Source: Actinomycetota bacterium (GTDB lineage: Bacteria; Actinomycetota; Actinomycetes; Nanopelagicales; Nanopelagicaceae). From it: 32,088 bases of DNA. Under the pieces are notes generated by a model. It saw only the letters and a list, made by a program, of their open reading frames with translations, ran no database searches and had not been told where the DNA came from. The stretch is taken from positions 18,783 through 50,870 of the forward strand of contig PLXJ01000041.1 of the NCBI GenBank assembly GCA_003151395.1. Reading direction: 5' to 3'. Shown here piece after piece: positions 6,929-22,963 of the stretch (positions within the stretch are counted from its first letter, which is position 1; the number at the start of each line of letters is the position of its first letter). Made by a program: the position numbers and the translations under genes.

Positions 6929-6941
6929 AAATCTTATGATG

Positions 6942-6998: not shown

Positions 6999-8609
6999 TC
7001 AGCTGGTAGCTAGTGCAGGCCTCGTCGCGATGACGAATTCGAGCTGTCCTGGCATCAGACCCTGAACGAGATCTGGGCCGATGTCACTACCAGATAGGTA
7101 GAACCGGGTTCCAACTGGGATAAACGTCGAGAGGTTCCAGGCAATTGCCTCAACCTGAGTCAACTTGTCTTTGATGGTTGCTGCATCCTTAGAGGAGCCA
7201 GCATCATTGAGAAGTTGTGCAGTTTGAGTTAATAGCGCACTTGGAACGTTTGCGTTATTCGCCCACACCCCTCCTGGGGCGAACCAGTTGCTTAACTGCA
7301 AGATTGGCGTGGCGGCGTTATTACCAAACCACATCATTCCCCAGTCTTTGCGATTGATGTAATCAGAGATAGCGGTATCAGGTGTAACCATGTTAATCGT
7401 TACATCGATGCCGATAACTGCAAGGTTGCTCTTGATGATCGTAGCAGCGTCTTGCCAAAGTACGCGGTTCGGTACATCCATCGTCACTTTGAATCCAAGT
7501 GGATAGCCAGCTGCTTTCATCAACTTACGAGCGGAGGCTGTATCACGTACCCCATTTCCTGGAATGGAACAGAGGTAATAAGGATTACTGGTGTTGTACT
7601 GCATACCGCAGTTTGGTCCTGCCAGGCCACCAAAAGCATTTCTCATGATTTGAGCGCGGTCAATTGCAAGAGAGATCGCTTGGCGAACTCGAGCATCCTT
7701 GAGTGGCTTGTATGGCTGTAGCGGTCCCATATTGAAGGCGATCATGAAAGTACCGGAATCCTTTGCCGCAGCAACCCGGAACTTAGTTTTGTCGAACTTC
7801 GTCGTTGCGCTTGCAAGTGGAAGTTCCATGACATAGTCAACGCTTCCGTTTTGGAATGCGGCAAGCCGTGAATTCGCATCAGGAATTGTGACAACTCTTA
7901 ACTCTTTGACTACAGGCTTGGCCCAATAATTTGGGTTAGCGTCAGCCACGAAGAGATCAGTTCCTGGTTGGAAAGTCTTGACCATCATTGGTCCCGCACT
8001 GACGGGATTCTTGAAGTAGACGGCTGCCTTCGCAGGAGTATCTGTTCGGGATGCTGGGTGGATTCCCATAAACTCTTGTGCAAGAGCAAAGTGGAAATCA
8101 GGGTATGGAGACGACAAAGTCCACACGAGAGTGTGAGCATCTTTTGCAACAACGCTTACAACCTTGGCTATGTATGAAGCGGATTGCTTCGATGCCTGCC
8201 AGCGAGCGAACTGATTAACTGCATCAGCGGCGACGACTGGAGTGCCATCGGAATAATTCATCGTGCGCATTGTTTCTGTGATGGTCAGTCCATCAGGTGA
8301 GACAGTTTCGGCTGTAACTAGATCCGGTGCAGGAAAACGATTTGCAGCGAAACGGTAGAGCTGACCTTGAACAATGTAGGCCATCTGGCTCTCTGTATAT
8401 CCACCAACTGGATTTAATTTATCCAGGGTAGAAACACGCTGTAGCGCGGCATAGGTGACAACATCGCAAGAAGCATTTGCTGGCGTGCTTCGAATATTGC
8501 AATTTGAACCTGACGCAGCGTTAGAAGCTTGAACACCTGCGAATGCCGAGAGCGACAGAGAAACCGCAGCCCCCAGAATCACCAGTTTCTTACTCTTAAA
8601 TTTGATCAT
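6999..8609 (-). CDS. Extracellular solute-binding protein, family 5 (DppA/OppA-like)
   Basis: A 536-residue binding protein. Residues 1-32 are a Sec signal peptide with a lysine-rich start, a hydrophobic core and an AxA-like cleavage region (QASNAAS). There is no lipobox: the first cysteine, about residue 37, follows GSN. The mature part is a family 5 two-lobed fold, with segments such as LKDARVRQAISLAIDR typical of the family. These proteins bind peptides, nickel or, in many environmental bacteria, oligosaccharides and sugar derivatives, so the ligand is open; the surrounding sugar-acid genes favour a carbohydrate. GAGGGGAAGC precedes the ATG. It heads the transporter operon with its own promoter and operator. 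Confidence 0.93.
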   Translation of the reverse strand: MIKFKSKKLVILGAAVSLSLSAFAGVQASNAASGSNCNIRSTPANASCDVVTYAALQRVSTLDKLNPVGGYTESQMAYIVQGQLYRFAANRFPAPDLVTAETVSPDGLTITETMRTMNYSDGTPVVAADAVNQFARWQASKQSASYIAKVVSVVAKDAHTLVWTLSSPYPDFHFALAQEFMGIHPASRTDTPAKAAVYFKNPVSAGPMMVKTFQPGTDLFVADANPNYWAKPVVKELRVVTIPDANSRLAAFQNGSVDYVMELPLASATTKFDKTKFRVAAAKDSGTFMIAFNMGPLQPYKPLKDARVRQAISLAIDRAQIMRNAFGGLAGPNCGMQYNTSNPYYLCSIPGNGVRDTASARKLMKAAGYPLGFKVTMDVPNRVLWQDAATIIKSNLAVIGIDVTINMVTPDTAISDYINRKDWGMMWFGNNAATPILQLSNWFAPGGVWANNANVPSALLTQTAQLLNDAGSSKDAATIKDKLTQVEAIAWNLSTFIPVGTRFYLSGSDIGPDLVQGLMPGQLEFVIATRPALATS

Positions 8610-8744: not shown

Positions 8745-9800
8745 TTATAAATCAGGCGTAGAACGCCCCAATTCTGGGACTGGTACCCCATATTTAGCCG
8801 CAACTTCCAAAATACTTTGGCGGACCCCACCGGAAACCACGACTCCGGAAGCGAGGCGCAATTCCTTAGTTTTTGCTTCCATCTCCCCTGGCATAAGAAC
8901 GACCGAATTTCCTGGAGCTCCCGCCCCATGAATTGTTCCAGCGAATTGCTCCGTGATACTTCTAAAGAAATCCAATGGAACAAAGCGAGATATATCAACG
9001 GCCATGATGACGGTACCGTTTCCAAAGCCACTCTTAGAAATGGTGGCTGGCAGATTCCCCGCGAGCATTCCTGCCGCGACATCGATCAAAATAGAAAGCC
9101 CTGATCCTTTATGTCCACCGAAGGCGAGGAGTGCTCCACCGTCCTCCAAATCTTTTGCCCTCGTTGAGGGAATTCCGTTTTTATCGATGAGGGCACCCGA
9201 TTCAATCTCTTGATCATTCATCGCCGCGAGGATAACTTTTCCAGCAGCGACAACAGCCGTCGAGAAATCCAAAACCAAGTTATACCCAGCTACACCAGGA
9301 ACCGACCAGGCAAAGGGATTTGTACCCAGCACCTTCTTGATCCCTCCAAAAGGTGCCACAACTTCCCCGCCCGTATTACAAAATGCGATTCCCATCATCC
9401 CAGCCTGCGCAATTTCGTCCACATATTCGCCAAGTCGACCCACATGATTTGTCCGAGAGAGGACGGCAGTGGCGGTACCAAATTCTTGCGCGCTAGCAAT
9501 TACCGTTTGGGTTGCTAGCGCTGAAGCCATCTGACCCCAACCCCATTCCCCATCGATCAAAGCCGTCGCCTGCTTTTCCCACTCGACCCTCGGCAAAGCA
9601 CCAGGAATTATTTGTCCGCCTTGTACCCACCCGGAATACTCAACAAGTCGAATGACTCCATGCGAGTCATGTCCCACGAGATTAGAAAGCACAAGTGAAC
9701 GGGCGACGGTTTCTGCTGATCCTTGAGGGGCGCCCATACCCATTAAAACGCGTGTGGTAAGGGCTTCAAGGACCTCGTGTGTGAGCGTTAAATCTTTCAT
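8745..9800 (-). CDS. Ldh2/LOR-SDH family malate/lactate/ureidoglycolate-type dehydrogenase
   Basis: A 351-residue NAD(P)-dependent oxidoreductase of the malate/L-lactate dehydrogenase type 2 family, unrelated to Rossmann dehydrogenases. The hallmark GHDSHG is at 43-48, NHVGRLGEY and the KVLGTNPFAWSVP block are present, and FGGHKGSGLS appears near residue 230. Relatives reduce 2-keto acids such as 2,3-diketo-L-gulonate or oxidise ureidoglycolate, sulfolactate or malate. One base separates it from the hydratase stop, so it is the last gene of the six-gene operon. The role inferred here is redox conversion of a 2-keto or 2-hydroxy acid. The window does not show which. Confidence 0.9.
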   Translation of the reverse strand: MKDLTLTHEVLEALTTRVLMGMGAPQGSAETVARSLVLSNLVGHDSHGVIRLVEYSGWVQGGQIIPGALPRVEWEKQATALIDGEWGWGQMASALATQTVIASAQEFGTATAVLSRTNHVGRLGEYVDEIAQAGMMGIAFCNTGGEVVAPFGGIKKVLGTNPFAWSVPGVAGYNLVLDFSTAVVAAGKVILAAMNDQEIESGALIDKNGIPSTRAKDLEDGGALLAFGGHKGSGLSILIDVAAGMLAGNLPATISKSGFGNGTVIMAVDISRFVPLDFFRSITEQFAGTIHGAGAPGNSVVLMPGEMEAKTKELRLASGVVVSGGVRQSILEVAAKYGVPVPELGRSTPDL

Positions 9801-9801
9801 G

Positions 9802-10761
9802 CTAAATAAACATCGCTTCCACTAAACCAAGGTCGGTGAAATCGGCGGAGACTAAGTCACCTGGTTGCACGAAAGTATGCGCCGTGCACGTGCCCGTGCT
9901 CACAAGTTCCCCCGCGTTAACATCGCGCCCCCGCTCCCTGGCCCAGTTCACCATCCAGGTGAGGCTTGTCACCGGATGACCCATCGCCTCAACTCCTTTG
10001 CCAGATTTAATAAAGGAGCCATTTACATAGACATCAATGTTGGAATTAGGTAAGTCGATATCCTTCCAATCAACGTGCCTTCTTCCAGTTACAAATGCGG
10101 CTCCCCCAGCATTGTCATACATACCACCAAAGTAGCCACTTAAACTGTACCAATCCTCAAATACCGAGTCGCCAATTTCAATGACTGGCATTAAACACTC
10201 AATGCCTGCACGTAAATCTGCTTCTGAATATTCTTTCTCTCGTGCGGGAAAAGGCAAACCCAACTCGTAGGCGAATTCAAATTCGCAGAGACGATAATTA
10301 ACAAAGAATTCCGAAGGCACCACTGCTGGACTCTTGAAAATCGATCGCTTGAAAAGTCTTCCCGGGGAAGGGCTTGGAACATTTTCAGCCTTGCGGACTT
10401 CTTGACTCGCAGCTCCTACTTTCCAGCCGGCACCTTCCCAGCCAAGGGCAGACTCCAATTTTAGAATCACCTCTTCAACCGAATTCCACGACCTGGCGCG
10501 TAAGCGCTCCGGCATCACAACCGGAGTACGAGTATGTCGACCATGGACAATCAGATCGATTAGTTCTTGAACTTCTTCGCTAGTTAAATCGCTTTCACGG
10601 GCAGAGGGAATAGATCCGCCAGGAGGTGTAGGACCGTGAATAAGTCGACCACGAGTCGTGAGGTGGTCCGGAAGTGGGATTGATTTTTCAGAGCGAAGTT
10701 TTAGAATGCGATCGATCTCGTAAGCAGTTGGTTCTTCATTGACCCGCGTTGAACTCTGCAT
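9802..10761 (-). CDS. 2-keto-4-pentenoate hydratase-like (MhpD/FAH superfamily) protein
   Basis: A 319-residue FAH-fold protein of the hydratase/decarboxylase branch. GWKVGAAS near 112-119 matches the family's conserved GxKVG block; the acidic metal ligands are expected in CEFEFAYELG (E160 and E162); DNAGG near 216-220 and GHPVTSLTWM also fit. Relatives hydrate 2-hydroxypenta-2,4-dienoate, decarboxylate 4-oxalocrotonate, or dehydrate 2-keto-3-deoxy pentonates. I chose ATG at 10761 because TGGAG lies six bases upstream; a longer in-frame reading to 10887 overlaps the SDR and has no ribosome site. The N-terminal 110 residues are longer than in MhpD and may carry an extra region. Confidence 0.82.
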   Translation of the reverse strand: MQSSTRVNEEPTAYEIDRILKLRSEKSIPLPDHLTTRGRLIHGPTPPGGSIPSARESDLTSEEVQELIDLIVHGRHTRTPVVMPERLRARSWNSVEEVILKLESALGWEGAGWKVGAASQEVRKAENVPSPSPGRLFKRSIFKSPAVVPSEFFVNYRLCEFEFAYELGLPFPAREKEYSEADLRAGIECLMPVIEIGDSVFEDWYSLSGYFGGMYDNAGGAAFVTGRRHVDWKDIDLPNSNIDVYVNGSFIKSGKGVEAMGHPVTSLTWMVNWARERGRDVNAGELVSTGTCTAHTFVQPGDLVSADFTDLGLVEAMFI

Positions 10762-10795
10762 AATAAACTCCATTTCGACAGGTGAGACTTCAGAA

Positions 10796-11557
10796 TTAAT
10801 AGACGGCGCGTCCTCCAGAGAGGTCAAATGTGAAGCCAGTCGTGAAACTGCAAGCAGGGGAAATAATCCACGCAGCCAACAATGCAACTTCCGAAACGGT
10901 GCCGAAGCGATTCATCGGAATTTTTGACTTGAGGAAAGCCAGTGTTGAGTCCGAAAAACCTTCAAGAATTGGCGTCTCGATTAGCGCGGGAGCCATGGCG
11001 TTAACGGTTACCCCTGAAGTCGCGTACTCCTTTCCGATACTTTTTACCATTCCAATCAATCCAGCTTTCGTAGCCGAATAAGAAACCAGAAGTGGATTGC
11101 CATCTTTGCCGGAGATGCTTGCCAGGTGCAGAATCCGTCCATAGCCGCGATCGGACATCCCTTTGAGTAGCGCTTTCGTGAAGATCAATGCACCTCTCAA
11201 ATTGATTTGGTAGACCAGATCAAAGTTCGCTATATCGACATCCTCCGCTTTGCTTCCATTCTCTCCCAGAATTCCGACGCAATTTATTCCCCCGTGAATT
11301 CCACCTAAATCATTTTCAACTTTCTTTACACAGTCATTGATGGATTCTTCGCTGAGAAAGTCGATCCCGTAGATATGTAAATTGGGGCTCTGAGATTGGG
11401 CCTTAAATTCGTCCAAGGCCTCCAAGTTCTTGTCGCATGCTGCGACCACGGCTCCCCTGGTTAGAAGCAAACTAGCGATCGCGCGACCAATACCGCTGCC
11501 GGCTCCAGTAACGAGGATGAGATGCCCGGTGATATCTTCTGGACTGGGAGAGCTCAT
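10796..11557 (-). CDS. Short-chain dehydrogenase/reductase
   Basis: A 253-residue classical SDR with TGAGSGIG at 17-24, the NAG-equivalent NCVG at 92-95, and the catalytic S147, Y160 and K164. The C-terminus ends in FDLSGG, typical for the family. The ATG directly follows the stop of the ADC-like gene and is preceded by AGGAAG, so translation is coupled. It presumably oxidises or reduces a hydroxy group of the operon's substrate; the sequence alone does not identify it. Confidence 0.88.
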   Translation of the reverse strand: MSSPSPEDITGHLILVTGAGSGIGRAIASLLLTRGAVVAACDKNLEALDEFKAQSQSPNLHIYGIDFLSEESINDCVKKVENDLGGIHGGINCVGILGENGSKAEDVDIANFDLVYQINLRGALIFTKALLKGMSDRGYGRILHLASISGKDGNPLLVSYSATKAGLIGMVKSIGKEYATSGVTVNAMAPALIETPILEGFSDSTLAFLKSKIPMNRFGTVSEVALLAAWIISPACSFTTGFTFDLSGGRAVY

Positions 11558-12319
11558 TTAGCTTCCTTTCTTTGCTAGGTCAACGAGTATTTCACCCGGG
11601 ACCAAAGTGAAATCAACTTTCCAGTAGAAACTCACCAGAGTTTCAAGAACCGGGAGTTTGTATAGTGGAGCGTTGATATTTGGTTCGAGTACCAACGTTG
11701 CAGGTCCTTTCCAGCAGTCATGCACCACGACATCTGCTAGAACTCGCGACGTTATCTGGTTAATTCCTTCAGTGCCATCAATGTTCCGTACTATTTTGTG
11801 ATTTATATTCTCTCGAAACGGAAAGTAATTGCTTAACTCTTCGATATTGGCTTTTTGGTATTTGTAGGGAGTTGTCGATCGAGCGATGGTTATCCCATTT
11901 CTGCAAATCTCAGAGACAATGGTGTCGCCTCGAACTTCGATTGTCGTGTTTCCAAATTTCTTTGGTTGACCATGAATTTCGCGACCTTGACTTAAGCCAA
12001 CATCGGAACTGATATAAAGATTGGTACTAAATCCGCCGAAGTGATCACCCCCAGGTGTTGAGACCTTTACGCCTGTCATGATATTTGCTTCTTGCACCTC
12101 ACCCATGCCCGCAACATCGGGCATATGATAAAAGTGAACCATCACCGTATCGCCAGTGCTTTCAATCGGATCGACCAAATGCTCCGAAATAGCCGTGGGA
12201 TCAGTTCGGTAAACCGTCGTCATGATTTCAACGTTTCGATATTCAATAGGAAATCTCGGGAAAAGCGGTGCGTTTTTGGGGCTGGTCCAGATATCGGATG
12301 CAACCTTTTCAACGCTCAT
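11558..12319 (-). CDS. Acetoacetate decarboxylase-like (ADC fold) protein
   Basis: A 253-residue member of the ADC family. The motif GREIHGQPKKFGN at 112-124 contains the lysine pair that in clostridial acetoacetate decarboxylase holds the Schiff-base lysine; here K120 is the candidate. The upstream acidic segment GEVQEAN resembles the family's glutamates. Many ADC-fold proteins are not acetoacetate decarboxylases but aldolase-dehydratases or decarboxylases of other keto acids. The GGAAGG before the ATG is good. Its first codons overlap the 3' end of PPDK by 11 bases. A beta-keto acid arising from a sugar acid is a plausible substrate (inference). Confidence 0.82.
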   Translation of the reverse strand: MSVEKVASDIWTSPKNAPLFPRFPIEYRNVEIMTTVYRTDPTAISEHLVDPIESTGDTVMVHFYHMPDVAGMGEVQEANIMTGVKVSTPGGDHFGGFSTNLYISSDVGLSQGREIHGQPKKFGNTTIEVRGDTIVSEICRNGITIARSTTPYKYQKANIEELSNYFPFRENINHKIVRNIDGTEGINQITSRVLADVVVHDCWKGPATLVLEPNINAPLYKLPVLETLVSFYWKVDFTLVPGEILVDLAKKGS

Positions 12320-15047
12320 GCTGGATTCCTTCCTCTGATTTCTTTCGTTTGGTATCTGCCGAAGCTACCGAAACCTTGGTAGATATACCTGCGCGCCCCG
12401 CTTCCAATCTAGCTACTGGCACTCGGAATGGAGAGCATGAGACATAATCTAAACCCGTTCTCTGAAAAAAGTGGATACTTGTTGGGTCTCCACCATGTTC
12501 GCCGCAAACGCCTAATTTGAAAGTGGGAGAGAATTCTCGCGCTTGCTCCTTGGCAATTTTGATTAGTGATCCGACCCCGTCTTGATCCAAGGATTCAAAG
12601 GGATTGAAGGGCAGAAGTTCCAGATCCAGATACCTCGGCAGAAAGGTCGATTCTGCATCATCGCGACTAAAACCGTAGGTCAATTGGGTGAGGTCATTAG
12701 TGCCAAAAGAGAAAAAATCGGCGTATTCAGCAATTCTTGATGCGGTTATTGCTGAACGCGGGGTTTCGATCATGGTTCCAATTGGAATATCGATCTCATG
12801 ACCGGTGCCGATCAAGACTTGTTTTATTTCATCTTCCAAACTCTCTCGGAGGTGCAGGAGTTCTCGTTGTGTTGCAACGAGTGGGACCATAATTTCTGGA
12901 ATCGGATTGTGACCCATCCTTCGCACTTCAATTGTTGCAAGAACCAGGGCGCGAACCTGCATTTTAAAAAGATCTGGAATTAATATTCCAAGTCGCACTC
13001 CGCGCAGTCCCAGCATTGGATTGCTCTCATGCATGCGTTTAACCGCGCTAAAGATCGCGGCCTCTTTTGGAGTTATCACTTGGCCCAGCGCCTCTGCACG
13101 AGCCAACCGAGCGGACATCTCTGAAAGTTCTGGCAAAAATTCGTGGAGCGGAGGATCTAACAGACGAACAGTTACCGGCAATCCCGACATCGCCATCATG
13201 ATTCCGACGAAGTCAGTGCGCTGCAGCGGCTCCATCTCGGCTAGCACGCTCTTTCGAACCTCGTCACTCTCCGCAAGAACCAAGCGCTCGACGTAGGAAC
13301 GTCGCTCGCCCAAGAACATATGCTCCGTTCTACAAAGCCCTACGCCTTGAGCTCCCAATATTCGCGCTCGAACCGCATCTTCCGGTGTATCTGCATTTGC
13401 ACGTACCTCCATTGTGCGCTTGGCATCAGCCAATTTCATAATGCGGTCTACGGCTTTAACTACCGAGCCAGCGGAATCCGTTTGAGCGGAGATCCTTCCT
13501 TCGAGGTAGGAAGTCACGGCAGAGGCGATTACAGGTACCGCTCCTAAGTAAACAGCTCCGCTTGTTCCGTCAATTGAAATTACTTCACCTGCGTGGACGA
13601 TGGTTTTCCCGATCGTAAAGAAAGTGTTCGAATCGTCGATGCGAATGCTCTCTGCCCCACACACAGCCGTCTTGCCCATTCCCCTAGCGACTACGGCAGC
13701 GTGTGAAGTTTTGCCGCCCCTGCTCGTGAGGATTCCCTGCGCGGCAACCATTCCAACCAAGTCATCTGGGCTCGTCTCTTTGCGAACCAAAATGACTTTT
13801 CTGCCCTCTCTGGCTTCATTTTGCGCGGTATAAGAATCGAAAACGACCTCTCCAACCGCCGCCCCAGGCGAAGCAGGTATACCGCGAGCAATTTCTACAA
13901 TCTCGCGATCTAAATCAAACTGCGGAAACATCAGACGCGCTAACTGATCTCCAGAAACGCGGGTAAGCGCTTCATCTTCGGTGATTTTCCCCTCGTCAAT
14001 CAACTGACAAGCAATTCGAAATGCGGCTTCAGCCGTTCGCTTTGCTACCCGAGTTTGAAGTATCCAAAGTTTGCCATCTTCAATCGTGAATTCAATATCG
14101 CAAATGTCGCGATAATGTAACTCTAAATTCATCATAACTATTTCGAGTTCCTCATGTGCCACTGGGTGTAATTTCTTCAAATCGGCCAATGGAAGGGTGT
14201 TCCGAATACCCGCAACCACGTCTTCACCCTGTGCCATCTGCAAATAATCCCCATAAGAACCAAACTCTCCGGTGGCAGGATTGCGCGTGAAGGCGACTCC
14301 AGTTCCCGATTTCTCCGAGAGATTTCCAAAGACCATGGATTGAATATTTACGGCGGTACCTAAATCAGATGGGATTCGCTCGCGACGTCGGTAAAGTTGG
14401 GCCCGTTCTGAATTCCAGGAATTAAAAACCGCGACAATCGCTTTTTTGAGTTGCTCCATGGGATCGTGAGTAAATGGTTTTCCAGTGAAGGACGCTATTA
14501 ATCCGACGTATGCCTCGCCTAACTCTTTCAGTTGTTCCGCGTTCAGATCTGAGACGGCAACTTCGCCAAAATGGAGAGAGTCGATCTTCTTAAATTCTGC
14601 AACTGGTATTTCGTGCACAATTCTGCCGAACATTTCAATAAATCTCCGATAGGTGTCCCAGGCGAATTTAGCGTTTTTTGATTTATCAGCTATCCCCTGT
14701 GCAACCTCAGGGTTGATACCCAAATTAAGGATTGTTTCCATCATGCCCGGCATCGAAAACTTTGCACCTGACCTCACAGAGACCAAGAGTGGATTCCTGA
14801 CGTCTCCGAGTTTTTTACCCGTGGATTTCTCCAGATGCTTAATCGAAACTTCCAACTCATCTAGAAGTCCGTTCGGTATCACCCCCTGCCGAAGAAAATG
14901 GCGGCAAGCATCGGTGCTTATCGTGAAGCCATCGGGAACAGGTAGCCCCAAACGAACCATCTCTGCAAGGTTTGCGCCCTTACCGCCGAGCAGTTCAGAT
15001 TGGCTTTTATCGCCATAAGAAAAAGGATAGATAAATTTTGTCTTCAT
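12309..15047 (-). CDS. ppdK: Pyruvate, phosphate dikinase
   Basis: A 912-residue PPDK, which reversibly converts pyruvate, ATP and phosphate to PEP, AMP and PPi. Seen in order: the N-terminal ATP-grasp (LLGGKGANLAEM, SVRSGAKFSMPGMMETIL), the swivelling phosphohistidine domain with GGKTSHAAVVARGMG (catalytic His and adjacent regulatory Thr), and the C-terminal PEP barrel with CRTEHMFLGERR, GLRGVRLGI, FSFGTNDLTQ and the catalytic-cysteine motif GVCGEHGG. The protein is about 35 residues longer than typical because of a charged C-terminal tail (TKRKKSEEG). Its ATG overlaps the extended-SDR stop. In an operon of catabolic enzymes it probably recovers PEP from pyruvate for gluconeogenesis. Confidence 0.96.
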   Translation of the reverse strand: MKTKFIYPFSYGDKSQSELLGGKGANLAEMVRLGLPVPDGFTISTDACRHFLRQGVIPNGLLDELEVSIKHLEKSTGKKLGDVRNPLLVSVRSGAKFSMPGMMETILNLGINPEVAQGIADKSKNAKFAWDTYRRFIEMFGRIVHEIPVAEFKKIDSLHFGEVAVSDLNAEQLKELGEAYVGLIASFTGKPFTHDPMEQLKKAIVAVFNSWNSERAQLYRRRERIPSDLGTAVNIQSMVFGNLSEKSGTGVAFTRNPATGEFGSYGDYLQMAQGEDVVAGIRNTLPLADLKKLHPVAHEELEIVMMNLELHYRDICDIEFTIEDGKLWILQTRVAKRTAEAAFRIACQLIDEGKITEDEALTRVSGDQLARLMFPQFDLDREIVEIARGIPASPGAAVGEVVFDSYTAQNEAREGRKVILVRKETSPDDLVGMVAAQGILTSRGGKTSHAAVVARGMGKTAVCGAESIRIDDSNTFFTIGKTIVHAGEVISIDGTSGAVYLGAVPVIASAVTSYLEGRISAQTDSAGSVVKAVDRIMKLADAKRTMEVRANADTPEDAVRARILGAQGVGLCRTEHMFLGERRSYVERLVLAESDEVRKSVLAEMEPLQRTDFVGIMMAMSGLPVTVRLLDPPLHEFLPELSEMSARLARAEALGQVITPKEAAIFSAVKRMHESNPMLGLRGVRLGILIPDLFKMQVRALVLATIEVRRMGHNPIPEIMVPLVATQRELLHLRESLEDEIKQVLIGTGHEIDIPIGTMIETPRSAITASRIAEYADFFSFGTNDLTQLTYGFSRDDAESTFLPRYLDLELLPFNPFESLDQDGVGSLIKIAKEQAREFSPTFKLGVCGEHGGDPTSIHFFQRTGLDYVSCSPFRVPVARLEAGRAGISTKVSVASADTKRKKSEEGIQHER

Positions 15048-16003
15048 AGGCTGGCAAGTATCATGTTCTCTAAATCATACGGTTTAGGAGCCAAGTCGCC
15101 CTGTGCAGTCCACCATTTAAAATAGATTTCTAGCGAATCGCTCAAAGACTTACTAGGAAGAAATCCCAAACTATTTTCTATTTTACGAGAGCTTAGAATC
15201 GCGGTGTTCTCTGGGAACGGGAAGGAAACATTTCTGAGATTGAAATTTTCAAGCGAGATGCCATATTTATCTGGTTCAAATGCGATGATCTTGGGAGTCT
15301 CACCGCAAATACTCGCGGCAATTTCTACAAATCCTCTGGACGTTGTCCCCTCTGGCATCACGATATTAAAAGCCTCTCTATCGACTCCTCCATCGGCACG
15401 AATGACCGCGACGATAGCATCTGCAACATCGCCCGCGTAGATAAATGAATGAACTGCCTTACCCCCACTCTGTAAAAGAATCGGCTTGCCCTCGAGTAAT
15501 CGGCTAAAAACAAATGATTCGCGATCTTCGTAATTCTCTGGTCCTAAAACAAAGGGCAGGCGAAGGGCGGTCGTTTGAAAATAACCTGATTTACTGAAAT
15601 CAACCAGCAAGCCCTCGGAGCGGATCTTCTCTTTTGCATAAGCTGCAAATGGATGTGGCGGACCCTTGGGAAAATCCTCGGAAATGGGGAATGTGTAACT
15701 TGCGGTGTAAACAGCGCCGGTAGAAATAAAGATATATTTTGCTATTTTATTAGAAAAGAAATTACCGGCCTCCTCAACCCAATCCGAGGAATACGCTGAA
15801 AAATCGATGATGTAATCAAAAGAGGAGCCCTTGAATTGCTCAAGTGAACCTGGAATCGATCGATCGCAGATTACATTCTTTACTCCAGGGCTTGCGGCCC
15901 GGGTGCCTCTGTTAGCCACCGTCACCTCTACGCCGGCCGCAACCAAAGCGCTAGAAACATACCTACCCATAAATCGAGTTCCACCAAAAATTAGCGCTTT
16001 CAT
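15044..16003 (-). CDS. NAD-dependent epimerase/dehydratase (extended SDR)
   Basis: A 319-residue extended SDR. The N-terminal cofactor loop is GGTRFMG near residues 7-13, the serine/threonine region is FISTGAVY, and the catalytic pair is in AAYAKEK (YxxxK). Relatives include nucleotide-sugar epimerases and sugar-acid or lactone dehydrogenases. I chose ATG at 16003, preceded by GGGCGGAAAA; an upstream ATG at 16018 lacks a ribosome site and gives an atypical N-terminus. First gene of the six-gene minus-strand operon, driven by the divergent promoter at 16039-16068. Its substrate is not recognisable. Confidence 0.85.
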   Translation of the reverse strand: MKALIFGGTRFMGRYVSSALVAAGVEVTVANRGTRAASPGVKNVICDRSIPGSLEQFKGSSFDYIIDFSAYSSDWVEEAGNFFSNKIAKYIFISTGAVYTASYTFPISEDFPKGPPHPFAAYAKEKIRSEGLLVDFSKSGYFQTTALRLPFVLGPENYEDRESFVFSRLLEGKPILLQSGGKAVHSFIYAGDVADAIVAVIRADGGVDREAFNIVMPEGTTSRGFVEIAASICGETPKIIAFEPDKYGISLENFNLRNVSFPFPENTAILSSRKIENSLGFLPSKSLSDSLEIYFKWWTAQGDLAPKPYDLENMILASL

Positions 16004-16038
16004 TTTTCCGCCCGTCATTACTTAGGTGTATTAGAGGG

Positions 16039-16078
16039 ATTGTAAACTGTTGACTAATTGTCAGTCAAGAGGTAGCCT
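16039..16078. promoter_or_regulatory. Overlapping divergent promoters with palindromic -35 boxes
   Basis: TTGACT (16050-16055) and AGTCAA (16063-16068) form a six-base inverted repeat with a 7-base spacer. On the minus strand TTGACT (16068-16063) is followed after 18 bases by TACAAT (16044-16039), a strong promoter for the PPDK operon. On the plus strand TTGACT (16050-16055) is followed after 17 bases by TAGCCT (16073-16078), a TAnnnT element six bases before the GTG at 16085. Each -35 lies in the other promoter's spacer, so RNA polymerase cannot occupy both at once. Confidence 0.65.
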
Positions 16079-16084
16079 CGCGCC

Positions 16085-17191
16085 GTGGACACCGTTGCCA
16101 AGATTGAGATCTTCGAGGCGAAAGTCCCGCTGGCCAAACCCCTATCGGTTGGTGCTGCGAAAATTACCTATCGAAGTTACACGATTGTAAAAGTTTCTAC
16201 AGCCGATGGGATCGTTGGTATCGGTTATTGCTACAGCCGTGGTCTCCCGATGGGTCAAATAATAAAGAACGTTATGGCCCCGATTGCGATTGGAAATTCA
16301 GCCGAGGATCCGAACAAAATCCGGAAAGAGATTTTGGCCTTTAATTGGCAATCTGCAGAACATGGGACGTTGACTGCTGCGTTAAGCGCGCTAGATCTTG
16401 CACTCCACGATATCCAAGCCAAACGCGTGGGAAAGACCGTAGCTGCAATGTTGGGCGCAACGGTGGACAGAATTCCGATTTATTCAGTGATTGGATACAA
16501 CTACGGAGATGATGAATCTGGGTTAAGAGATGAGATTGATTACGCGTTAAGCCGCGGAATCCGATCTTTTAAAATGATTGTGGGAGGGCATAGTCCGGAA
16601 AGGGATGCAGCGCGACTAGCTACTCTCCGCGATAAAGTTGGAACCAGCATGCCTGTTGGAGTAGATGCATTTCGCACTTTCAAAACCTTAGATAACGCAA
16701 TCAATCGAGTTAACCTCGTCAAAGAATTTGGAATTAATTTTGTAGAAGACCCATTTTTAGAATCGGAAGGTCTTCTCGCGCGACAGTTGCGCGAGGCGAC
16801 AGGGGTACCGATTTCCTACGGGGAATCCTTAGCCTCCTCCAAAATGATCGCCCAAGTACTTGATCACGATGAGTGCGACATCCTTCGAATTGATGCCCTC
16901 GTCGTGGGAGGCGTTTCCGAATTTATGACGGCAACATCGATGGCTGCGGCAAAGGGGAGAACTTTTTCTACCCATATTCACACCGAGATCCATTCACAAT
17001 TAGCTGCTGCGACTTCCAATCTCTATATCGGAGGTCTGGAGTATCTGGATCCAATGTATGAGATCGACTTATTCCACCATTTGCTTCATCTACCTATTCA
17101 AATCGAAAATGGCGCCGCCATATTGTCAACCAGCCCTGGGTTTGGCATCCATTGGGACTGGGAAGCAATCGTGCACTTCTCGCAAGAATGA
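16085..17191 (+). CDS. Mandelate racemase/muconate lactonizing enzyme family (enolase superfamily) protein
   Basis: A 368-residue enolase-superfamily enzyme; these abstract the alpha-proton of a carboxylate, usually in acid-sugar dehydratases or racemases. Metal ligands are D194 (GVDAF), E221 (FVEDPF) and E247 (SYGES); the acid/base dyad D270 and H297 (FSTHIH) and E319 are present, with nearly the same numbers as in mandelate racemase. The usual KxK at the end of the third barrel strand is K163-M-I165: the second lysine is isoleucine, and the usual VDAN is VDAF. This argues for a dehydratase relying on the His-Asp dyad and against a racemase. The start is GTG, probably leaderless. First gene of the plus-strand operon. 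Confidence 0.88.
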   Translation: MDTVAKIEIFEAKVPLAKPLSVGAAKITYRSYTIVKVSTADGIVGIGYCYSRGLPMGQIIKNVMAPIAIGNSAEDPNKIRKEILAFNWQSAEHGTLTAALSALDLALHDIQAKRVGKTVAAMLGATVDRIPIYSVIGYNYGDDESGLRDEIDYALSRGIRSFKMIVGGHSPERDAARLATLRDKVGTSMPVGVDAFRTFKTLDNAINRVNLVKEFGINFVEDPFLESEGLLARQLREATGVPISYGESLASSKMIAQVLDHDECDILRIDALVVGGVSEFMTATSMAAAKGRTFSTHIHTEIHSQLAAATSNLYIGGLEYLDPMYEIDLFHHLLHLPIQIENGAAILSTSPGFGIHWDWEAIVHFSQE

Positions 17192-17206
17192 TGGAGGGCA
17201 ATTATC

Positions 17207-18169
17207 TTGCTGAATGAACAATCCGTCGTTCCATATCTCCGCCATCGAGGTATTCTCAACAATGATGCAACTGTAGAAATTTTCGGCGGTGGAGTGTCGA
17301 GTAGAGTTTTCGGTATTCAAAATCATGATGTGGACTTGGTACTTAAGCAGGCTTTGCCGGAATTGAAATCAGCAATCACCTGGCCGGCCGATCGTCGCCG
17401 TGCTACAACGGAAGCCAGGGCAATAAAGACCTTCCAGGCGATCACCCCTAAAAATGTTCCGCGCTTGATGGATGTGGACCCCGAAGAATTTACCGTCACA
17501 ATGACTCGAATGCCACGAGAATTTTTGGTCTGGAAATCTGAACTACTAGCCGGAAATATTCAACCAGAAATCGGGCGAGAACTCGGAAGAATATTGGCTT
17601 TTTGGCATAACTTTGGAGTTGAAAATGAAGCTATAAGAGCGCGCTTTTTGGAAGAGAAAGTATTTGAACAATTGCGAGTCTGGCCCTTCTATCGTGTCGT
17701 CCAAGAACAAAATCCACTTTTTTCCAAGATGATTTCTATGATGATCGATGAGATCACGCAAGAGAAGACCACGCTCGTCCACGGAGATTTCTCACCAAAA
17801 AACATTTTGGTCGCGTCTGGGCAGGAACCGATAATTTTGGATTTCGAAGCGATCAACACCGGCAATCCCGTCTTTGACCTCGCTTTCCTATTGGCTCATT
17901 TAGTTTGCAAAGAAATTCGTAGTGACGTGCCAGGTGAGAAAGAGTTGTTGCGTCAAACAGCAATCGAATTCTTAGCTTCTTATAAGCAAGGCTCAATTCT
18001 TGAGATTGCTCCTAATCTAAAAGACCATGTCGCGCTTATTGCACTTTCTCGAGTTGACGGTGTTTCCCTCGTCAAATATTTAGATGGAGCTAAGCAAGAA
18101 AAGGTTAGGTCTATCACGAAGGAAATTCTGGGCAGCCCAGGAGCGGATGTGACGGACCTATTCATATGA
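17207..18169 (+). CDS. Aminoglycoside phosphotransferase (APH)-type small-molecule kinase
   Basis: A 320-residue APH/choline-kinase-fold protein. A glycine-rich loop (FGGGVSS) near 26-32, a candidate ATP-binding lysine K47, the catalytic loop HGDFSPKN at 192-199 and the metal-binding LDFE at 211-214 are all present. The overall pattern recalls methylthioribose and homoserine kinases. It starts with TTG at 17207, supported by ATGGAGGG about eight bases upstream, and ends in an ATGA overlap with the enolase-like gene. The location predicts phosphorylation of a hydroxy acid or sugar acid whose product the next enzyme uses (inference). Antibiotic resistance is unlikely in this setting. Confidence 0.85.
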   Translation: MLNEQSVVPYLRHRGILNNDATVEIFGGGVSSRVFGIQNHDVDLVLKQALPELKSAITWPADRRRATTEARAIKTFQAITPKNVPRLMDVDPEEFTVTMTRMPREFLVWKSELLAGNIQPEIGRELGRILAFWHNFGVENEAIRARFLEEKVFEQLRVWPFYRVVQEQNPLFSKMISMMIDEITQEKTTLVHGDFSPKNILVASGQEPIILDFEAINTGNPVFDLAFLLAHLVCKEIRSDVPGEKELLRQTAIEFLASYKQGSILEIAPNLKDHVALIALSRVDGVSLVKYLDGAKQEKVRSITKEILGSPGADVTDLFI

Positions 18170-19434
18170 AGATTACTCAGCTCATGGGATATCAAATCCT
18201 CGATTCCAGGGGGAAGCCAACGGTTGCAGCCTCGCTTATCCTTGATGACGGAACAGTTCACACGGCGCGTATTCCCTCCGGGGCATCCACTGGCAAACAC
18301 GAAGCAAGAGAGATCCGGGATCATGAGGGCAAATTCGCTGGGGGAATGTACAGGGGGAACTCTGTTTATCAAGCTTGCGAAAACATCAATGAGTTAATTG
18401 CTCCTGGCCTTATTGGACGAACTCCTGATCTAACTGCAGTAGATCAATTCATCGCTCACCTCGATCCAACTCCAGGTTTTCAACGAATCGGAGCGAACGC
18501 ATCTTTGGCTATTTCAATCGCAGTGGCTAAAGCACAAGCCCATTCGGAGAGGAAATCTTTGGTCAGGCTTTTTCAGCCAACTGGCCAGTTAAAATTGCCG
18601 ATGCCTATGGCGAATATCCTGTCCGGGGGCGCGCATGCACGAAACACGATGGATATTCAAGATGTACTTGTAATCCCACATGGTGCTTCATCTTTCCACG
18701 AGGCCCTCTCCTGGCTATCGGCCATCCGAGAGAGCGCAGCAAGAGAAGGTGTTGTGCTGGGCGCTCCTACACATCTGACCGCAGATGAAGGTGGACTGGC
18801 GATCGAATTCCCGACAGTCGAAGGCGCTTTTGACTTTGTGACTTCATGCATTTCAAGCGTAGGACTTAGAACTGGAACTGATGTCTCATTGGCCATCGAT
18901 TTCGCTGCAACACAGTTTTATCATGACGGAATTTATCGACTTGCAAAGGCAAAGCGAGAATTCCAGGCGACAGAATTTGTCTCATACGTGCGTCACTTGG
19001 TAAATAGCCATCCGATCATTTCAATTGAAGACCCTTTTGCGGAAGATGACTGGAATTCCTGGAACGCCTTTATGGAAGAAATTCCCGAAGGTCTACAAGT
19101 TATAGGAGATGATCTCTACACCACCAATCTTTTGAGATTAGAGCGTGGGATAAAGGAGAATTCCTCCAATGCAATCTTGATAAAACCCAATCAAAATGGG
19201 CTCCTTACCTCGACTTTAGAAGTTTTACAGAGAGCTCAGCAAAGCAACCGAAAGACGATTGTTTCGGCGCGCAGTGGAGAGACCGAGGATTCATGGCTGG
19301 CTGATCTTGCAGTCGGGTGGGGAGCTGAACAAATAAAGGTAGGCTCCACACATGGCTCAGAACGAACGGCAAAGTGGAACCGGCTGCTTGAACTAGAAGC
19401 GACCGAAGCATGCGATTTCGCTCATCCTTTTTAA
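18166..19434 (+). CDS. Divergent enolase (phosphopyruvate hydratase paralogue)
   Basis: A 422-residue enolase, about ten residues shorter than usual. Retained: YQILDSRGKPTV, PSGASTG, GGAHA (H157), ADEGG (E208), metal ligands D245, E288 and D315, lysine base K340 (LIKPNQ), RSGETED and K391. Changed: the QE dyad is QD (D166 where yeast enolase has E168), the SHRSGETED histidine is alanine (A368 for yeast H373), and the C-terminal IKTGAPCRSER block reads IKVGSTHGSER. It may be a slow enolase or act on a different 2-phospho acid. The ATG overlaps the kinase stop. With glycerate kinase next, 2-phosphoglycerate to PEP is the default reaction. Confidence 0.85.
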   Translation: MKITQLMGYQILDSRGKPTVAASLILDDGTVHTARIPSGASTGKHEAREIRDHEGKFAGGMYRGNSVYQACENINELIAPGLIGRTPDLTAVDQFIAHLDPTPGFQRIGANASLAISIAVAKAQAHSERKSLVRLFQPTGQLKLPMPMANILSGGAHARNTMDIQDVLVIPHGASSFHEALSWLSAIRESAAREGVVLGAPTHLTADEGGLAIEFPTVEGAFDFVTSCISSVGLRTGTDVSLAIDFAATQFYHDGIYRLAKAKREFQATEFVSYVRHLVNSHPIISIEDPFAEDDWNSWNAFMEEIPEGLQVIGDDLYTTNLLRLERGIKENSSNAILIKPNQNGLLTSTLEVLQRAQQSNRKTIVSARSGETEDSWLADLAVGWGAEQIKVGSTHGSERTAKWNRLLELEATEACDFAHPF

Positions 19435-19453
19435 TGAAAGCAACGAGACCTCT

Positions 19454-20602
19454 GTGAACGCCAAAGATCGAATAGCGATCGTAGCCCCCGACAAATTTAG
19501 AGGCAGCGCGCACCAAAAGGAATTGATCGAGACGATTGCTACAACGCTCGATGACTCTGGAGATTTCACGAAGATCCTTAAATTCGAGATCGCAGACGGT
19601 GGCGAGGGAACTTCTACCATTTGGCGTAATTTGGGTTGGCACGAAATCAAATTAATAGTTGCCGGCCCGCTAGGTGATCTACATCAAGCATCAATTTACC
19701 AATCACCGGATCAGCGAAAAATTGGAATCGAACTCGCGGAATGCTGTGGCACAAAGTGGCTCTCGGGACGACAAGAACCCCTTGATAGTTCAACTTTTGG
19801 CCTTGGTCAAGCGCTTAAAAGTGCAATGGCCCTCTCCCCGAGCGAAATCATTGTGGCCTTAGGTGGTAGCGCTAGCAGCGATGCCGGCGCAGGAATCGCC
19901 GAAGCGCTAGGTCTCCCATATCTCGATGCTCAAAAGAAGATGGTTCGACGAGGTTTAAAGGGTCTAGGAAAATTTCGGAGGATTGATCACGAAGAATTAG
20001 AGAGATTTAGAGATTCAATGCAGCACATAAAGGTAAGAATATTGACCGATGTCGCTAATCCAATCTGCGGGAAAAACGGAGCTATACGTTCCTTTGGTGA
20101 GCAGAAAGGACTTAACTCTATACAACGTCGGTATTGGGATCGCGTTATGTACAAGGCTGTAAAGCGGTTGGAAAAAACCACTCAAACCAAACTCTTAGGT
20201 GTTCTCGGATTCGGTGCTGCTGGTGGCACTGCATTGGCGATCAATCTCTTCTTTCAAGGAGATATTGAGTCAGGAGCAGAATATTGCTTGCAAGAGAGCG
20301 GCTTCTTAGCTGCCCTCCCCCAGGCCGATCTAGTTGTCACCGGAGAAGGCAAACTCGATTCAACCACGATTCAAGGCAAGACCGTCTTTAAAATACTCAC
20401 GCACTGCAGAAACCAATCTATCGACTCTTTAGTAGTGGTAGGACAAGGAAAGAAAAAAATAGTAAAGATGATCGAATCAGAATTCCCACTGACGAGAATT
20501 TACTCATTGACCAAGTTAGCCGCGTCTTCCAGCGAATCCTTGAAAAACCCTCATAAGTACATTAAAGAAGCTGTTACCCAATATCTCAAAGAAAAGGATT
20601 AG
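19454..20602 (+). CDS. Glycerate kinase (GlxK/GarK family)
   Basis: A 382-residue glycerate kinase, normally producing 2-phosphoglycerate from D-glycerate and ATP. Family motifs are intact: APDKFRGS near the N-terminus, IADGGEGTS, VALGGSASSDAGAGIAEALG, DVANPICGKNGAI followed by FGEQKG, GFGAAGG, and VTGEGKLDSTTIQGK. The start is GTG at 19454 after a weak AACGAG. It lies 19 bases after the enolase-like gene, which would convert 2-phosphoglycerate to PEP. This links a glycerate-releasing catabolic route to lower glycolysis and to the PPDK of the opposite operon. Confidence 0.93.
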   Translation: MNAKDRIAIVAPDKFRGSAHQKELIETIATTLDDSGDFTKILKFEIADGGEGTSTIWRNLGWHEIKLIVAGPLGDLHQASIYQSPDQRKIGIELAECCGTKWLSGRQEPLDSSTFGLGQALKSAMALSPSEIIVALGGSASSDAGAGIAEALGLPYLDAQKKMVRRGLKGLGKFRRIDHEELERFRDSMQHIKVRILTDVANPICGKNGAIRSFGEQKGLNSIQRRYWDRVMYKAVKRLEKTTQTKLLGVLGFGAAGGTALAINLFFQGDIESGAEYCLQESGFLAALPQADLVVTGEGKLDSTTIQGKTVFKILTHCRNQSIDSLVVVGQGKKKIVKMIESEFPLTRIYSLTKLAASSSESLKNPHKYIKEAVTQYLKEKD

Positions 20603-20644
20603 TATTGAAATCATGAGCCTCGCCAATAGATTTCTCGTTTTGCC

Positions 20645-21301
20645 GTGACAAGATTTATCACGGCCGAAAAGCTTAAAGATAAAACCTATTTCGAAAAAAC
20701 TAAATTTGCGTTGTTGACTGAGATTCAAAGCGGCAAGATTGTTTGTGCCGGTCTCGAAAATGGGTATGTATATCTGGCTTATCCGTATAGTCAGGCCGCA
20801 GTAGATAAGTTCCGCGAAATCGCCATGCGGGATGAAGACACCTTTTTCCCAGTACTAATTCCTGATTTGAGCGTTATGGAATCACTGACTGGCGCGGCAT
20901 CCCCAGAGTTAAAACTCCTTGCATCCACTTTTTGGCCAGGACCGATGAACGTGGTTGCACCCATAATCCCCGGATTGAACATTAATTTTGGCGCTAACAA
21001 ACCCCCGGCTAGCATCTATTGCAGAGTCCCCAGCAATAAGTTTCTGCGGGAGTTATTAGGTTTAATTGGACCCTTAATTTATGCGACAGCGCCGCAAATT
21101 TCGGGGCAACCAGCGCGTCAGGTAGCTGACATCGCTCCCAAGATAAAGAAACAGATTGACATCATCATAGATTCGGGGCGTTGCAGATACACCAGGCCTG
21201 CCACGACCGTAAGTTTCGTTACTCAACCGCCAAAAATATTGAGGCAAGGCATCATTGATGAAATCAAATTGCGTAGCGTCCTACAACATCTTTCAGATTA
21301 A
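20645..21301 (+). CDS. Degenerate YrdC/Sua5-like (TsaC fold) protein
   Basis: A 218-residue protein with the second half of the YrdC/Sua5 pattern: TFWPGPMNVV (usual FWPGPLT), IYCRVPSN (usual vRvP), IYATAPQISGQPA (usual TSAN-SG) and PATTVSF near the end. The N-terminal substrate motifs are poor: the usual PTDTVYGL reads ENGYVYLAY and the KxR segment is not evident. TsaC makes threonylcarbamoyl-AMP for tRNA t6A; this copy has probably lost or altered that role. The start is GTG at 20645, with no clear ribosome site. It is last in the operon after glycerate kinase, and its stop shares bases with the convergent UlaG-like gene. Confidence 0.72.
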   Translation: MTRFITAEKLKDKTYFEKTKFALLTEIQSGKIVCAGLENGYVYLAYPYSQAAVDKFREIAMRDEDTFFPVLIPDLSVMESLTGAASPELKLLASTFWPGPMNVVAPIIPGLNINFGANKPPASIYCRVPSNKFLRELLGLIGPLIYATAPQISGQPARQVADIAPKIKKQIDIIIDSGRCRYTRPATTVSFVTQPPKILRQGIIDEIKLRSVLQHLSD

Positions 21302-22107
21302 CGCATTTCTATTGGAACTCCGAGTGTTGGAATTGCAACTTTGCCGTTAGGTTCTAATTTTTTATAGGTATCAGTAAACTCATCTAAATCAAGAGTTGCA
21401 TCGTCCTGACCTTCGACATTTTCTGCCCATAAACCAAAATGCATTGGTACGGCGAGCTTTGTACCTTGACGCCATGCTAAAAAGGCGGCCTCTTTAGTAT
21501 CCATATTTCCGGTAATTCCATTGATGCATATAAGAGAGATGTCCACGCGTCCCTCTGTGTCATCAACAATCGTGGCATCGTATTCGGTATCACCTGAGTG
21601 ATAAATTCTCCATTTACCAACGGTAATGATGTACCCAGTGGCGTCCGGAGTGGGTTCTGGACCAAACATGTGACGGGCTGCTACGGCCTGCACTTTGATG
21701 TCACCAACCATCACCTCATCACCACGATTAAGTGTTGTGGTTCGATCCCCGTAAAAGCCGCCAGCTCGGGCTAACTTAATAACCGAAAATGGTCCGAGGT
21801 AACGCGTCTTTGCATGCTTAGAGAAGGGGATCAAAGTTTCCGGATCGATATGATCATCATGCGGATGTGTGGCCATGATGGCGTCAAATTCGGTTTCGTC
21901 TGCCGATAGCGGCGCTGGGTATCCGCGTGCCACTCCATACGATGTAATGACAGAGTCCGTTAGATAAGGATCGATACAGACCATTACGCCGCTCGGACTT
22001 TTAATGACAAAGCCAGCTTGCAGCAGCCACCAGATGTGAACCGCTCCTGCCGGAACTGGTGTGTCCCGTATTTTTGGCCAAATTGATTCGCTATTTCCTG
22101 CGCTCAT
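21298..22107 (-). CDS. UlaG-like metal-dependent hydrolase (metallo-beta-lactamase fold)
   Basis: A 269-residue metallo-beta-lactamase-fold enzyme. The metal motif THPHDDHID gives H81, H83, D85 and H86; RHMFGPEPTPDATGYII and HSGDTEYD supply later ligands. The architecture matches the UlaG/UPF0173 group, where UlaG opens L-ascorbate-6-phosphate lactone. It is the last gene of the sugar ABC operon, two bases after the MalG-like permease, suggesting it hydrolyses a lactone or cyclic form of the imported substrate. That link is inferred from position. Confidence 0.88.
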   Translation of the reverse strand: MSAGNSESIWPKIRDTPVPAGAVHIWWLLQAGFVIKSPSGVMVCIDPYLTDSVITSYGVARGYPAPLSADETEFDAIMATHPHDDHIDPETLIPFSKHAKTRYLGPFSVIKLARAGGFYGDRTTTLNRGDEVMVGDIKVQAVAARHMFGPEPTPDATGYIITVGKWRIYHSGDTEYDATIVDDTEGRVDISLICINGITGNMDTKEAAFLAWRQGTKLAVPMHFGLWAENVEGQDDATLDLDEFTDTYKKLEPNGKVAIPTLGVPIEMR

Positions 22108-22109
22108 CT

Positions 22110-22961: not shown

Positions 22962-22963
22962 TG

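Follow-up and report, generated by a model that had tools for sequence, protein, structure and literature searches.

Enolase is treated as a single-function glycolytic enzyme. In the non-phosphorylating Entner-Doudoroff branch of Archaea it acts together with glycerate kinase and pyruvate kinase, and the diketo-hydrolase pathway (L-rhamnonate/L-fuconate type) ends in pyruvate and a hydroxy acid with neither a kinase nor an enolase. A non-glycolytic enolase homolog, carboxyphosphonoenolpyruvate synthase, takes part in the biosynthesis of bialaphos. The DNA analyzed here, called the window below, is a stretch of 32,088 nucleotides from an actinobacterium of the Nanopelagicaceae (G000:C11:18783-50870; the parent genome of 1.85 Mb lies in 54 contigs, and a Lake Pavin actinobacterial genome is its single close relative in the named genome collection). 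It encodes an altered enolase, ENO2, whose gene overlaps by 4 bases that of an APH-type kinase. The parts belong to known families; the pair, its active-site signature and its spread appear to be undescribed. No paper describing the pair was present among the matches listed in the open-access literature, subscription papers being outside the scope of that search, and PMC7494193, in the part available, mentions enolase once and says nothing of another copy.

An initial annotation of the window had described eleven genes in two tight operons with a common promoter region and had taken them as one pathway set. The description was borne out by the open reading frames (ORFs), by the families and by a divergent intergenic region of 66 bases (16019-16084): the 11 ORFs were verified, 6 on the minus and 5 on the plus strand, and the spacing within the operons runs from an 11-base overlap up to 42 bases, the MhpD/SDR junction varying with the chosen start. 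The enolase had rightly been called divergent, since the source genome also has a standard enolase (G000:C31), which is 44% identical to ENO2. The conserved core is narrower and more widespread than had been held, and consists of two genes, the APH-type kinase and the second enolase.

The closest solved structure to the kinase by sequence is methylthioribose kinase, also of the APH superfamily (2olc, E 7e-8), from which it differs by its enolase partner and by a score of 65 bits, far under the cut-off of 275, against the methylthioribose kinase model. The catalytic-loop motif HGD.SPKN was found in 17/17 aligned rows and the acidic motif LDFE that comes after it in 16/17 (LDAE in G055), in an alignment that covered 17 of the 28 kinase rows. 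Pfam matches at E 0.001 were limited to APH, EcKL, TCAD9 and RIO1; the same scan gave neither a PF02595 nor a class III glycerate kinase domain. Matches to the window kinase occur in 70 of the 151 family genomes, a few of them weak; of the 30 loci with the highest scores, 28 have an enolase of the altered type directly next to the kinase. The exceptions are L060, a contig edge, and L073, where an FAH gene takes the place of the enolase. In a draw from the whole phylum the kinase was present in 6 of 396 genomes at E 1e-12, the source genome counted, and the altered enolase adjoins it in two of them, G204 and G190. When an Embleya kinase was used as query, 32 plasmid records contained a kinase match, from genera that include Rhizobium, Azospirillum, Sphingobium, Cupriavidus, Rhodococcus, Persicobacter and Enterobacter and the haloarchaea Haladaptatus and Halomarina. 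The pair recurs in other Actinobacteria, in Proteobacteria, in Bacteroidota and in haloarchaea.

The enolases of these pairs carry two substitutions in the active site. With residues given in yeast enolase numbering, Asp166 of ENO2 stands at the position of Glu168 and Ala368 at that of His373. Asp168/Ala373 was present in all 37 distinct family genomes with both sites readable, window included, and three partial pair enolases agree at the one site that each covers. Among 19 distant partner enolases (16 plasmid loci plus G055, G190 and G204), 18 have the same two residues; the 16 plasmid stretches, taken from the 32 records, contain such an enolase in 15 cases, Enterobacter being the exception. 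In total, 55 of 56 pair enolases read were Asp/Ala, versus 0 of 28 ordinary controls (24 from the source and related genomes, 4 from plasmids), which were all Glu/His and had no kinase match in flanks of about 0.5-10 kb. The G055 enolase (L009), which is Asp/Ala with a kinase nearby, was counted with the pair group and excluded from the controls. Four second enolases were also picked by enolase similarity alone: three were Glu/His with no kinase in 6-7.5 kb, and the fourth was Asp/Ala with a kinase directly upstream.

The rest of the active site is kept. As in the glycolytic enzyme, the equivalents of the metal ligands Asp246, Glu295 and Asp320 and of Lys345, Lys396, Glu211, His159, Arg374 and Ser375 were found in 41/41 family rows, in a table that omitted six ordinary enolases and the pair loci L006, L066, L071 and L072, all four of which were read later. 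The distant Asp/Ala rows likewise keep the metal, phosphate and main acid/base residues. ENO2 also scores above the curated cut-off of the glycolytic model TIGR01060. What separates the pair enolases from it, besides Asp168/Ala373, is the motif ADEGG, which replaces GDEGG in the altered rows of the family and of the distant set (Enterobacter excepted), the tie to an APH-type kinase and, here, the presence of a normal copy beside the second one. In a 40-row enolase tree the 10 ordinary rows grouped in a single clade (100/99) that excluded all 29 Asp/Ala rows, and the Enterobacter row sat on a very long branch; whether the Asp/Ala rows are a single clade depends on the root, and eight further ordinary rows were not in the tree. 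The annotated pair enolases seen here are labeled phosphopyruvate hydratase or enolase. Signature and gene partner set apart a second enolase group in bacteria and haloarchaea that may be misannotated.

According to the available part of a study of the Mycobacterium tuberculosis enolase, Glu163 and Glu204 act together at the terminal carbon of the substrate, and the C2 proton is removed by Lys335 (PMC10619443). In a sequence alignment, Glu163 of that enzyme aligns with yeast Glu168. His373 is presumably also located at the C3 end of the pocket. As the catalytic residues are kept, the usual chemistry is predicted, in which a 2-phospho acid loses its C2 proton and its C3 group; as the two substitutions fall in the part of the site that handles the C3 group, the substrate would differ at C3 or in configuration. 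The substitutions probably reshape the C3-group end of the pocket, and the substrate is probably not D-2-phosphoglycerate. The idea that the altered enolase uses a non-standard substrate, already put forward in the initial annotation, can be retained as probable, and the acid-catabolism setting proposed with it is supported as well.

We infer all the substrates and reactions named here, as well as the direction of the pathway. On balance we lean toward a scheme of kinase-catalyzed phosphorylation at O2 of a short 2,3-dihydroxy acid, after which elimination of the C3 group by the altered enolase leaves phosphoenolpyruvate (PEP) or a substituted PEP. The ABC transporter, the SDRs, the mandelate-racemase (MR) enzyme, the ADC-family enzyme and the 2-hydroxyacid dehydrogenases of the window would supply the acid, with an oxidative sugar-acid breakdown releasing a short 2,3-dihydroxy acid or another 3-substituted lactate. 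The APH-type kinase would then phosphorylate the 2-hydroxyl with ATP, and the altered enolase would take the C2 proton and expel the C3 substituent, as glycolytic enolase does, yielding PEP or a 3-substituted PEP. Pyruvate, phosphate dikinase (PPDK) could convert PEP to pyruvate with a gain of ATP. Candidate substrates are 2-phospho-L-glycerate, a C3-extended acid such as 2-phosphotetronate, and a compound with a non-hydroxide leaving group; we rate L-glycerate and the C3-extended acids about equally and D-glycerate somewhat lower. With slightly less assurance, we consider it somewhat probable that the Asp168/Ala373 enolases form a cross-domain catabolic family that has an APH-type 2-hydroxyacid kinase as partner and acts as dehydratase on a 2-phospho acid distinct from D-2-phosphoglycerate; this would be a previously undescribed phosphorylating dehydration step in sugar-acid catabolism.

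The scheme shares with the archaeal Entner-Doudoroff branch the logic of hydroxy acid to 2-phospho acid to PEP to pyruvate; it differs in that the kinase is of the APH type and not a class II or III glycerate kinase, the enolase is altered and the substrate is only proposed. Genes of the classes known from the diketo-hydrolase pathway (dehydratase, SDR and FAH) stand around the pair in many genomes, across several lineages; the unit in the window has an MR enzyme, SDRs and only a weak FAH-type protein (MhpD), the clear FAH gene at 926-1579 lying outside it. Carboxyphosphonoenolpyruvate synthase, compared here by description, offers a known precedent for a non-glycolytic enolase homolog, and its context is phosphonate biosynthesis; no phosphonate genes were noticed by eye in the pair loci, and no search for them was made. 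The recurrence of the pair in distant bacteria and in archaea suggests a route, so far undescribed, by which an acid derived from sugar enters central metabolism. If its substrate differs from that of glycolysis, it would represent a new reaction for the founding family of the enolase superfamily, a new kinase for sugar-acid catabolism and an additional carbon-use step in small-genome actinobacteria.

Beyond the pair, the window holds a wider unit. Of the 151 family genomes, 7 have the ADC gene, 8 the extended SDR (E 1e-40) and 9 the MR enzyme (E 1e-60). All 7 ADC genomes, which span 4 genera, also have the MR enzyme and the extended SDR, and all 8 extended-SDR genomes are among the 9 with the MR enzyme (Fisher p for ADC and MR 1.2e-10, uncorrected for relatedness). 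The kinase is present in 6 of the 7; in the seventh, G098 (80% complete), ADC, MR and extended SDR are present with no kinase match and no enolase beside them. In the same genome the extended SDR gene (L139 7681-8636), which stands next to MR and ADC, is broken into two frames. Counterparts of the right flank of the window accompany the ADC genes in G063, G077 and G088, and the extended SDR, the MR gene and the pair are on contigs apart from ADC; the window unites parts that stand separate in relatives. The right-flank counterparts in G063 and G077 include the transporter, the metallo-beta-lactamase-fold (MBL) hydrolase, the YrdC protein and the FMN dehydrogenase, with the transporter within about 5 kb of ADC; in G088 the contig ends in the binding-protein gene. 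The SDR at 25437-26195 is conserved in all three of these genomes. The MBL gene is kept with the transporter, and a YrdC gene stands beside it, in G020, G063 and G077; the YrdC/Sua5 gene of the window lies inside the catabolic operon and is kept in relatives.

An operator-like site stands at both divergent promoters of this region (Table 1). The sequence ATTGTAAACWGTTGAC occurs without mismatch at the extended SDR/MR promoter of L087, L089, L141 and L142 and with two mismatches in that of L043; the site was not found at the same promoter in L139. An exact copy precedes the ADC operon of G148. With a matrix built without the window, the two best separate sites in the window were those at the two divergent promoters, and the maximum in 40 simulated windows was 15.8. 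The 11 training sites of the matrix had been selected because they resemble the consensus of window and relatives, which leaves the site at 26220 as the only held-out test. Loose matches to the consensus (at most 3 mismatches) numbered 2 in the window versus 0.54 expected, a count reached in 9 of 100 shuffles and not significant alone. We read the region 8745-28411, ABC transporter included, as one putative regulon of four operons whose sites a common regulator may bind, and the unit probably extends right to 28411. The eleven genes of the initial annotation are real; the transporter side, with its second operator-like site, had been missed.

Table 1: Genes and operator-like sites of the catabolic region (positions in the window).
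Feature	Position	Strand	Basis
Ldh2-type 2-hydroxyacid dehydrogenase	8745-9800	-	Pfam Ldh_2 290 bits
MhpD/FAH-type protein	9802 to ~10773	-	Pfam FAA_hydrolase 25.3 bits, barely above cut-off 23.9
SDR linked to ADC	10796-11557	-	Follows ADC in 6/7 ADC loci of relatives (L133-L138, not L139)
ADC (acetoacetate-decarboxylase)-family enzyme	11558-12319	-	Pfam ADC 141 bits
PPDK (PEP to pyruvate or reverse)	12309-15047	-	TIGR01828 1199 bits, cut-off 843
Extended SDR, divergent partner of MR gene	15044-16018	-	Pfam Epimerase 95.5 bits
Operator-like site, extended SDR/MR divergent promoter	16036-16057	+	Consensus ATTGTAAACWGTTGAC exact at 16039-16054; matrix score 24.1
MR/MLE-family enzyme (sugar-acid dehydratase or epimerase class)	16085-17191	+	Pfam MR_MLE_C 138 bits
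APH-type small-molecule kinase, module core	17207-18169	+	Pfam APH 56 bits, cut-off 23.2
Altered enolase ENO2, module core	18166-19434	+	TIGR01060 402 bits, cut-off 300; Enolase_N and Enolase_C present
Class II glycerate kinase	19454-20602	+	Pfam Gly_kinase 284 bits
YrdC/Sua5-domain protein	20645-21301	+	Pfam 86 bits; one of 3 matches in genome
MBL-fold hydrolase	21298-22107	-	Pfam Lactamase_B_3
Carbohydrate-type ABC transporter (2 permeases, binding protein)	22110-25298	-	Pfam BPD_transp_1 (two), SBP_bac_1
SDR ahead of transporter genes	25437-26195	-	Pfam adh_short_C2 187 bits
Second operator-like site, SDR / D-2-hydroxyacid dehydrogenase divergent promoter	26220-26241	+	Matrix score 18.4
D-2-hydroxyacid dehydrogenase	26256-27191	+	Pfam 2-Hacid_dh_C 164 bits
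FMN-dependent 2-hydroxyacid dehydrogenase	27167-28411	+	Pfam FMN_dh 438 bits

The assignment of some of these enzymes is broad. The nearest NCBIfam model of the MR/MLE enzyme is L-talarate/galactarate dehydratase (161 bits, below the cut-off of 500). The MhpD/FAH-type protein reaches 80 bits against the HpaH model (cut-off 351), and the start of its gene is uncertain, the mechanical ORF reaching 10887. Counterparts of the D-2-hydroxyacid and FMN dehydrogenases also stand beside the pair in L043/L074. Leftward on the contig (G000:C11:8383-18458, L140) the catabolic island continues with a second ADC, a DapA-type gene, SDR genes, an MR-like gene and a second Ldh2. An operator-like site is found there at 10908 (score 15.9) before the second ADC with the DapA-type and SDR genes, and a GntR-like regulator gene, named by eye and with a palindrome at its start (15517), is a candidate regulator of the unit. 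At the left end of the window, an FAH hydrolase (926-1579), SDR, KDPG-type aldolase and ABM-domain genes form a second sugar-acid unit (926-3278), with an oligopeptide-type ABC transporter at 3275-8609 to its right.

Within the family, the pair was found in three settings: with differing combinations of IlvD/EDD sugar-acid dehydratase, FAH hydrolase, aldehyde dehydrogenase, SDRs and U32-like protein (A); with a lactonase, KDG kinase, KDPG aldolase and glycolate-oxidase-type subunits in L090-L093, where RraA was also seen in L090 and L091, and PPDK in L090 and L092 (B); and with the extended SDR and the MR enzyme, the arrangement of the window (C). In other phyla, FAH hydrolases, SDRs, MR enzymes and D-2-hydroxyacid dehydrogenases are common near the pair. 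We also considered whether kinase and enolase replace the sugar-acid dehydratase in the set B genomes, where the stretches examined contain no dehydratase; this was not upheld, as an IlvD/EDD-type gene (C1:1363454-1364389) lies in G062 at a distance of about 3.6 kb from the stretch examined around the pair. PF00920 is present in 13/13 genomes, in some of which the single copy may be biosynthetic.

Several neighbors of the kinase use PEP. A PPDK gene is near it in the window, in L090 and L092 (within 7 kb) and in L119 (adjoining). PEP carboxylase is near it in L105, the sole locus in which D-2-hydroxyacid dehydrogenase, kinase, enolase and PEP carboxylase, the classes of a serine-cycle-like glycerate module, stand together, and was not found in L109 or L112. 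These neighbors favor PEP as the product, though PPDK is common, and speak against long acids. In L119 (1778-5287, G316) the PPDK is divergent and adjoins a kinase relative of 26% identity, with no enolase seen within 10 kb. PPDK as the sole route from PEP to pyruvate was rejected, pyruvate kinase being matched in 13/13 genomes tested; in the source genome it matches in two adjacent frames (G000:C12:18193-19151; 74 and 437 aa), a frameshift or assembly error. The glycerate kinase of the window is probably accessory, because the PF02595 family is present in 3 of 14 kinase-bearing genomes. G002, a genome without a kinase match, has glycerate kinase and PPDK about 8.6 kb apart, and these two enzymes may serve ordinary D-glycerate.

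The pair could also belong to an ordinary D-glycerate route, in which an APH-type D-glycerate 2-kinase supplies an enolase acting on D-2-phosphoglycerate. The two substitutions would then be lineage marks that the enzyme tolerates, and the pair would provide a pathway-dedicated supply of PEP from glycerate. We regard this as unlikely. It would fit the lack of a PF02595 glycerate kinase in 11 of the 14 kinase-bearing genomes (class III was not searched), the PPDK genes near the kinase in four loci, the gene order of Rhizobium indicum, where PEP carboxylase comes directly before a 2-hydroxyacid dehydrogenase and the kinase, and the D-2-hydroxyacid dehydrogenase neighbors, which suit an R acid. 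Against it, two residues at the C3 end are changed in nearly all pair enolases and in none of the controls; an ordinary enolase, where present as in the source genome, would already perform the step, and the window operon carries a class II glycerate kinase as well. Quite improbable is the explanation closest to the initial annotation, that all eleven genes form a dedicated pathway that turns an acid into glycerate and pyruvate, with glycerate kinase, enolase and PPDK as its outlet. In 97 loci surrounding genes of the pair, MR or ADC, neither MhpD nor glycerate kinase had a match at E 1e-10, Ldh2 had one, on the window's own contig, and PPDK is near the kinase in some genomes only. The eleven-gene explanation also omits the transporter side, which has the operator-like site too. 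The tight operons with their single divergent promoter, the MR enzyme in 7/7 ADC genomes and the operator-like site shared by the ADC operon of G148 all agree with it; genes of the two operons do occur together in other genomes in the case of ADC, MR and extended SDR, and most pair loci lack both ADC and MR. As a whole, the interpretation first given to the window is thus partly supported.

Two further explanations bear on the chemistry of the enolase. The enzyme might remove a non-hydroxide leaving group, for instance sulfite from 2-phospho-3-sulfolactate to give PEP. The changed residues do lie where the leaving hydroxyl is handled, the PEP-using neighbors are compatible, and the second-best model of the window Ldh2 is L-sulfolactate dehydrogenase (173 bits, cut-off 500). 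Glu211 is kept, though, no sulfite-handling gene was recognized by eye in the loci read (no dedicated search was made) and nothing relevant was among the matches listed in the open-access literature, so that we hold sulfite removal to be very improbable. It is hardly credible that the second enolase serves the kinase as a non-catalytic or regulatory partner: two active-site residues are replaced, but every family row and the distant Asp/Ala rows as well retain the metal, phosphate and main acid/base residues, a conservation that an inactive enzyme would not be expected to show.

The preferred scheme, phosphorylation of a short 2,3-dihydroxy acid followed by elimination at C3, has weak points of its own. 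PEP as the product needs a C3 substrate, and an enlarged pocket is then unexplained unless the stereochemistry or the leaving group differs; the D-2-hydroxyacid dehydrogenase neighbors, fitting an R acid, argue against L-glycerate. The Enterobacter relative (31% identical) is without the Asp/Ala signature. The weakest kinase relatives of the phylum draw, in G316, G289 and G222 (24-37% identity), had no enolase in the stretches examined, and G163 (L073/L084) has the kinase with an FAH gene at the enolase position and no enolase within 18.5 kb. The pair is not always adjacent: its two genes are separated by 4-5 kb in L090 and L091, which have a more distant kinase, by 4.6-5.8 kb in L105, L109 and L112 and by about 0.95 kb, measured between aligned parts, in L042. 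The neighbors of the pair differ widely from lineage to lineage. Finally, PPDK is present in 11 of the 14 kinase-bearing genomes tested (missing from 3) and in 1 of the 4 that lack the kinase, and the pyruvate kinase found in all 13 genomes tested weighs against the scheme as well.

Some pair loci showed other recurrent genes. A U32-peptidase-like protein of about 307 aa is encoded near the pair in family loci (15 copies, e.g., L036, L037, L075, L080 and L090-L093), and five copies compared were 27-31% identical to the Enterobacter U32 protein. The latter belongs to a cluster on an Enterobacter chuandaensis plasmid (L107 8241-12697), where an APH kinase adjoins the U32-family gene and an enolase-like gene that is very divergent and lacks the Asp/Ala signature; aminotransferase, M14 peptidase and nucleotidyltransferase genes are also present, and the cluster looks biosynthetic. 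On the haloarchaeal plasmids L099 and L102, TCP-1/cpn60 chaperonin and ketol-acid-reductoisomerase-like genes are found among many MR enzymes adjoining the pair. In L100, L103, L105, L109, L112 and L113, a common cluster of VOC dioxygenase, MDR alcohol dehydrogenase, cupin and D-2-hydroxyacid dehydrogenase genes surrounds the pair. Its hosts are Rhizobium, Cupriavidus, Rhodococcus and Sphingobium, with alcohol dehydrogenases up to 78% identical between Rhodococcus and Cupriavidus, and it is perhaps one mobile catabolic pathway for a possibly aromatic compound.

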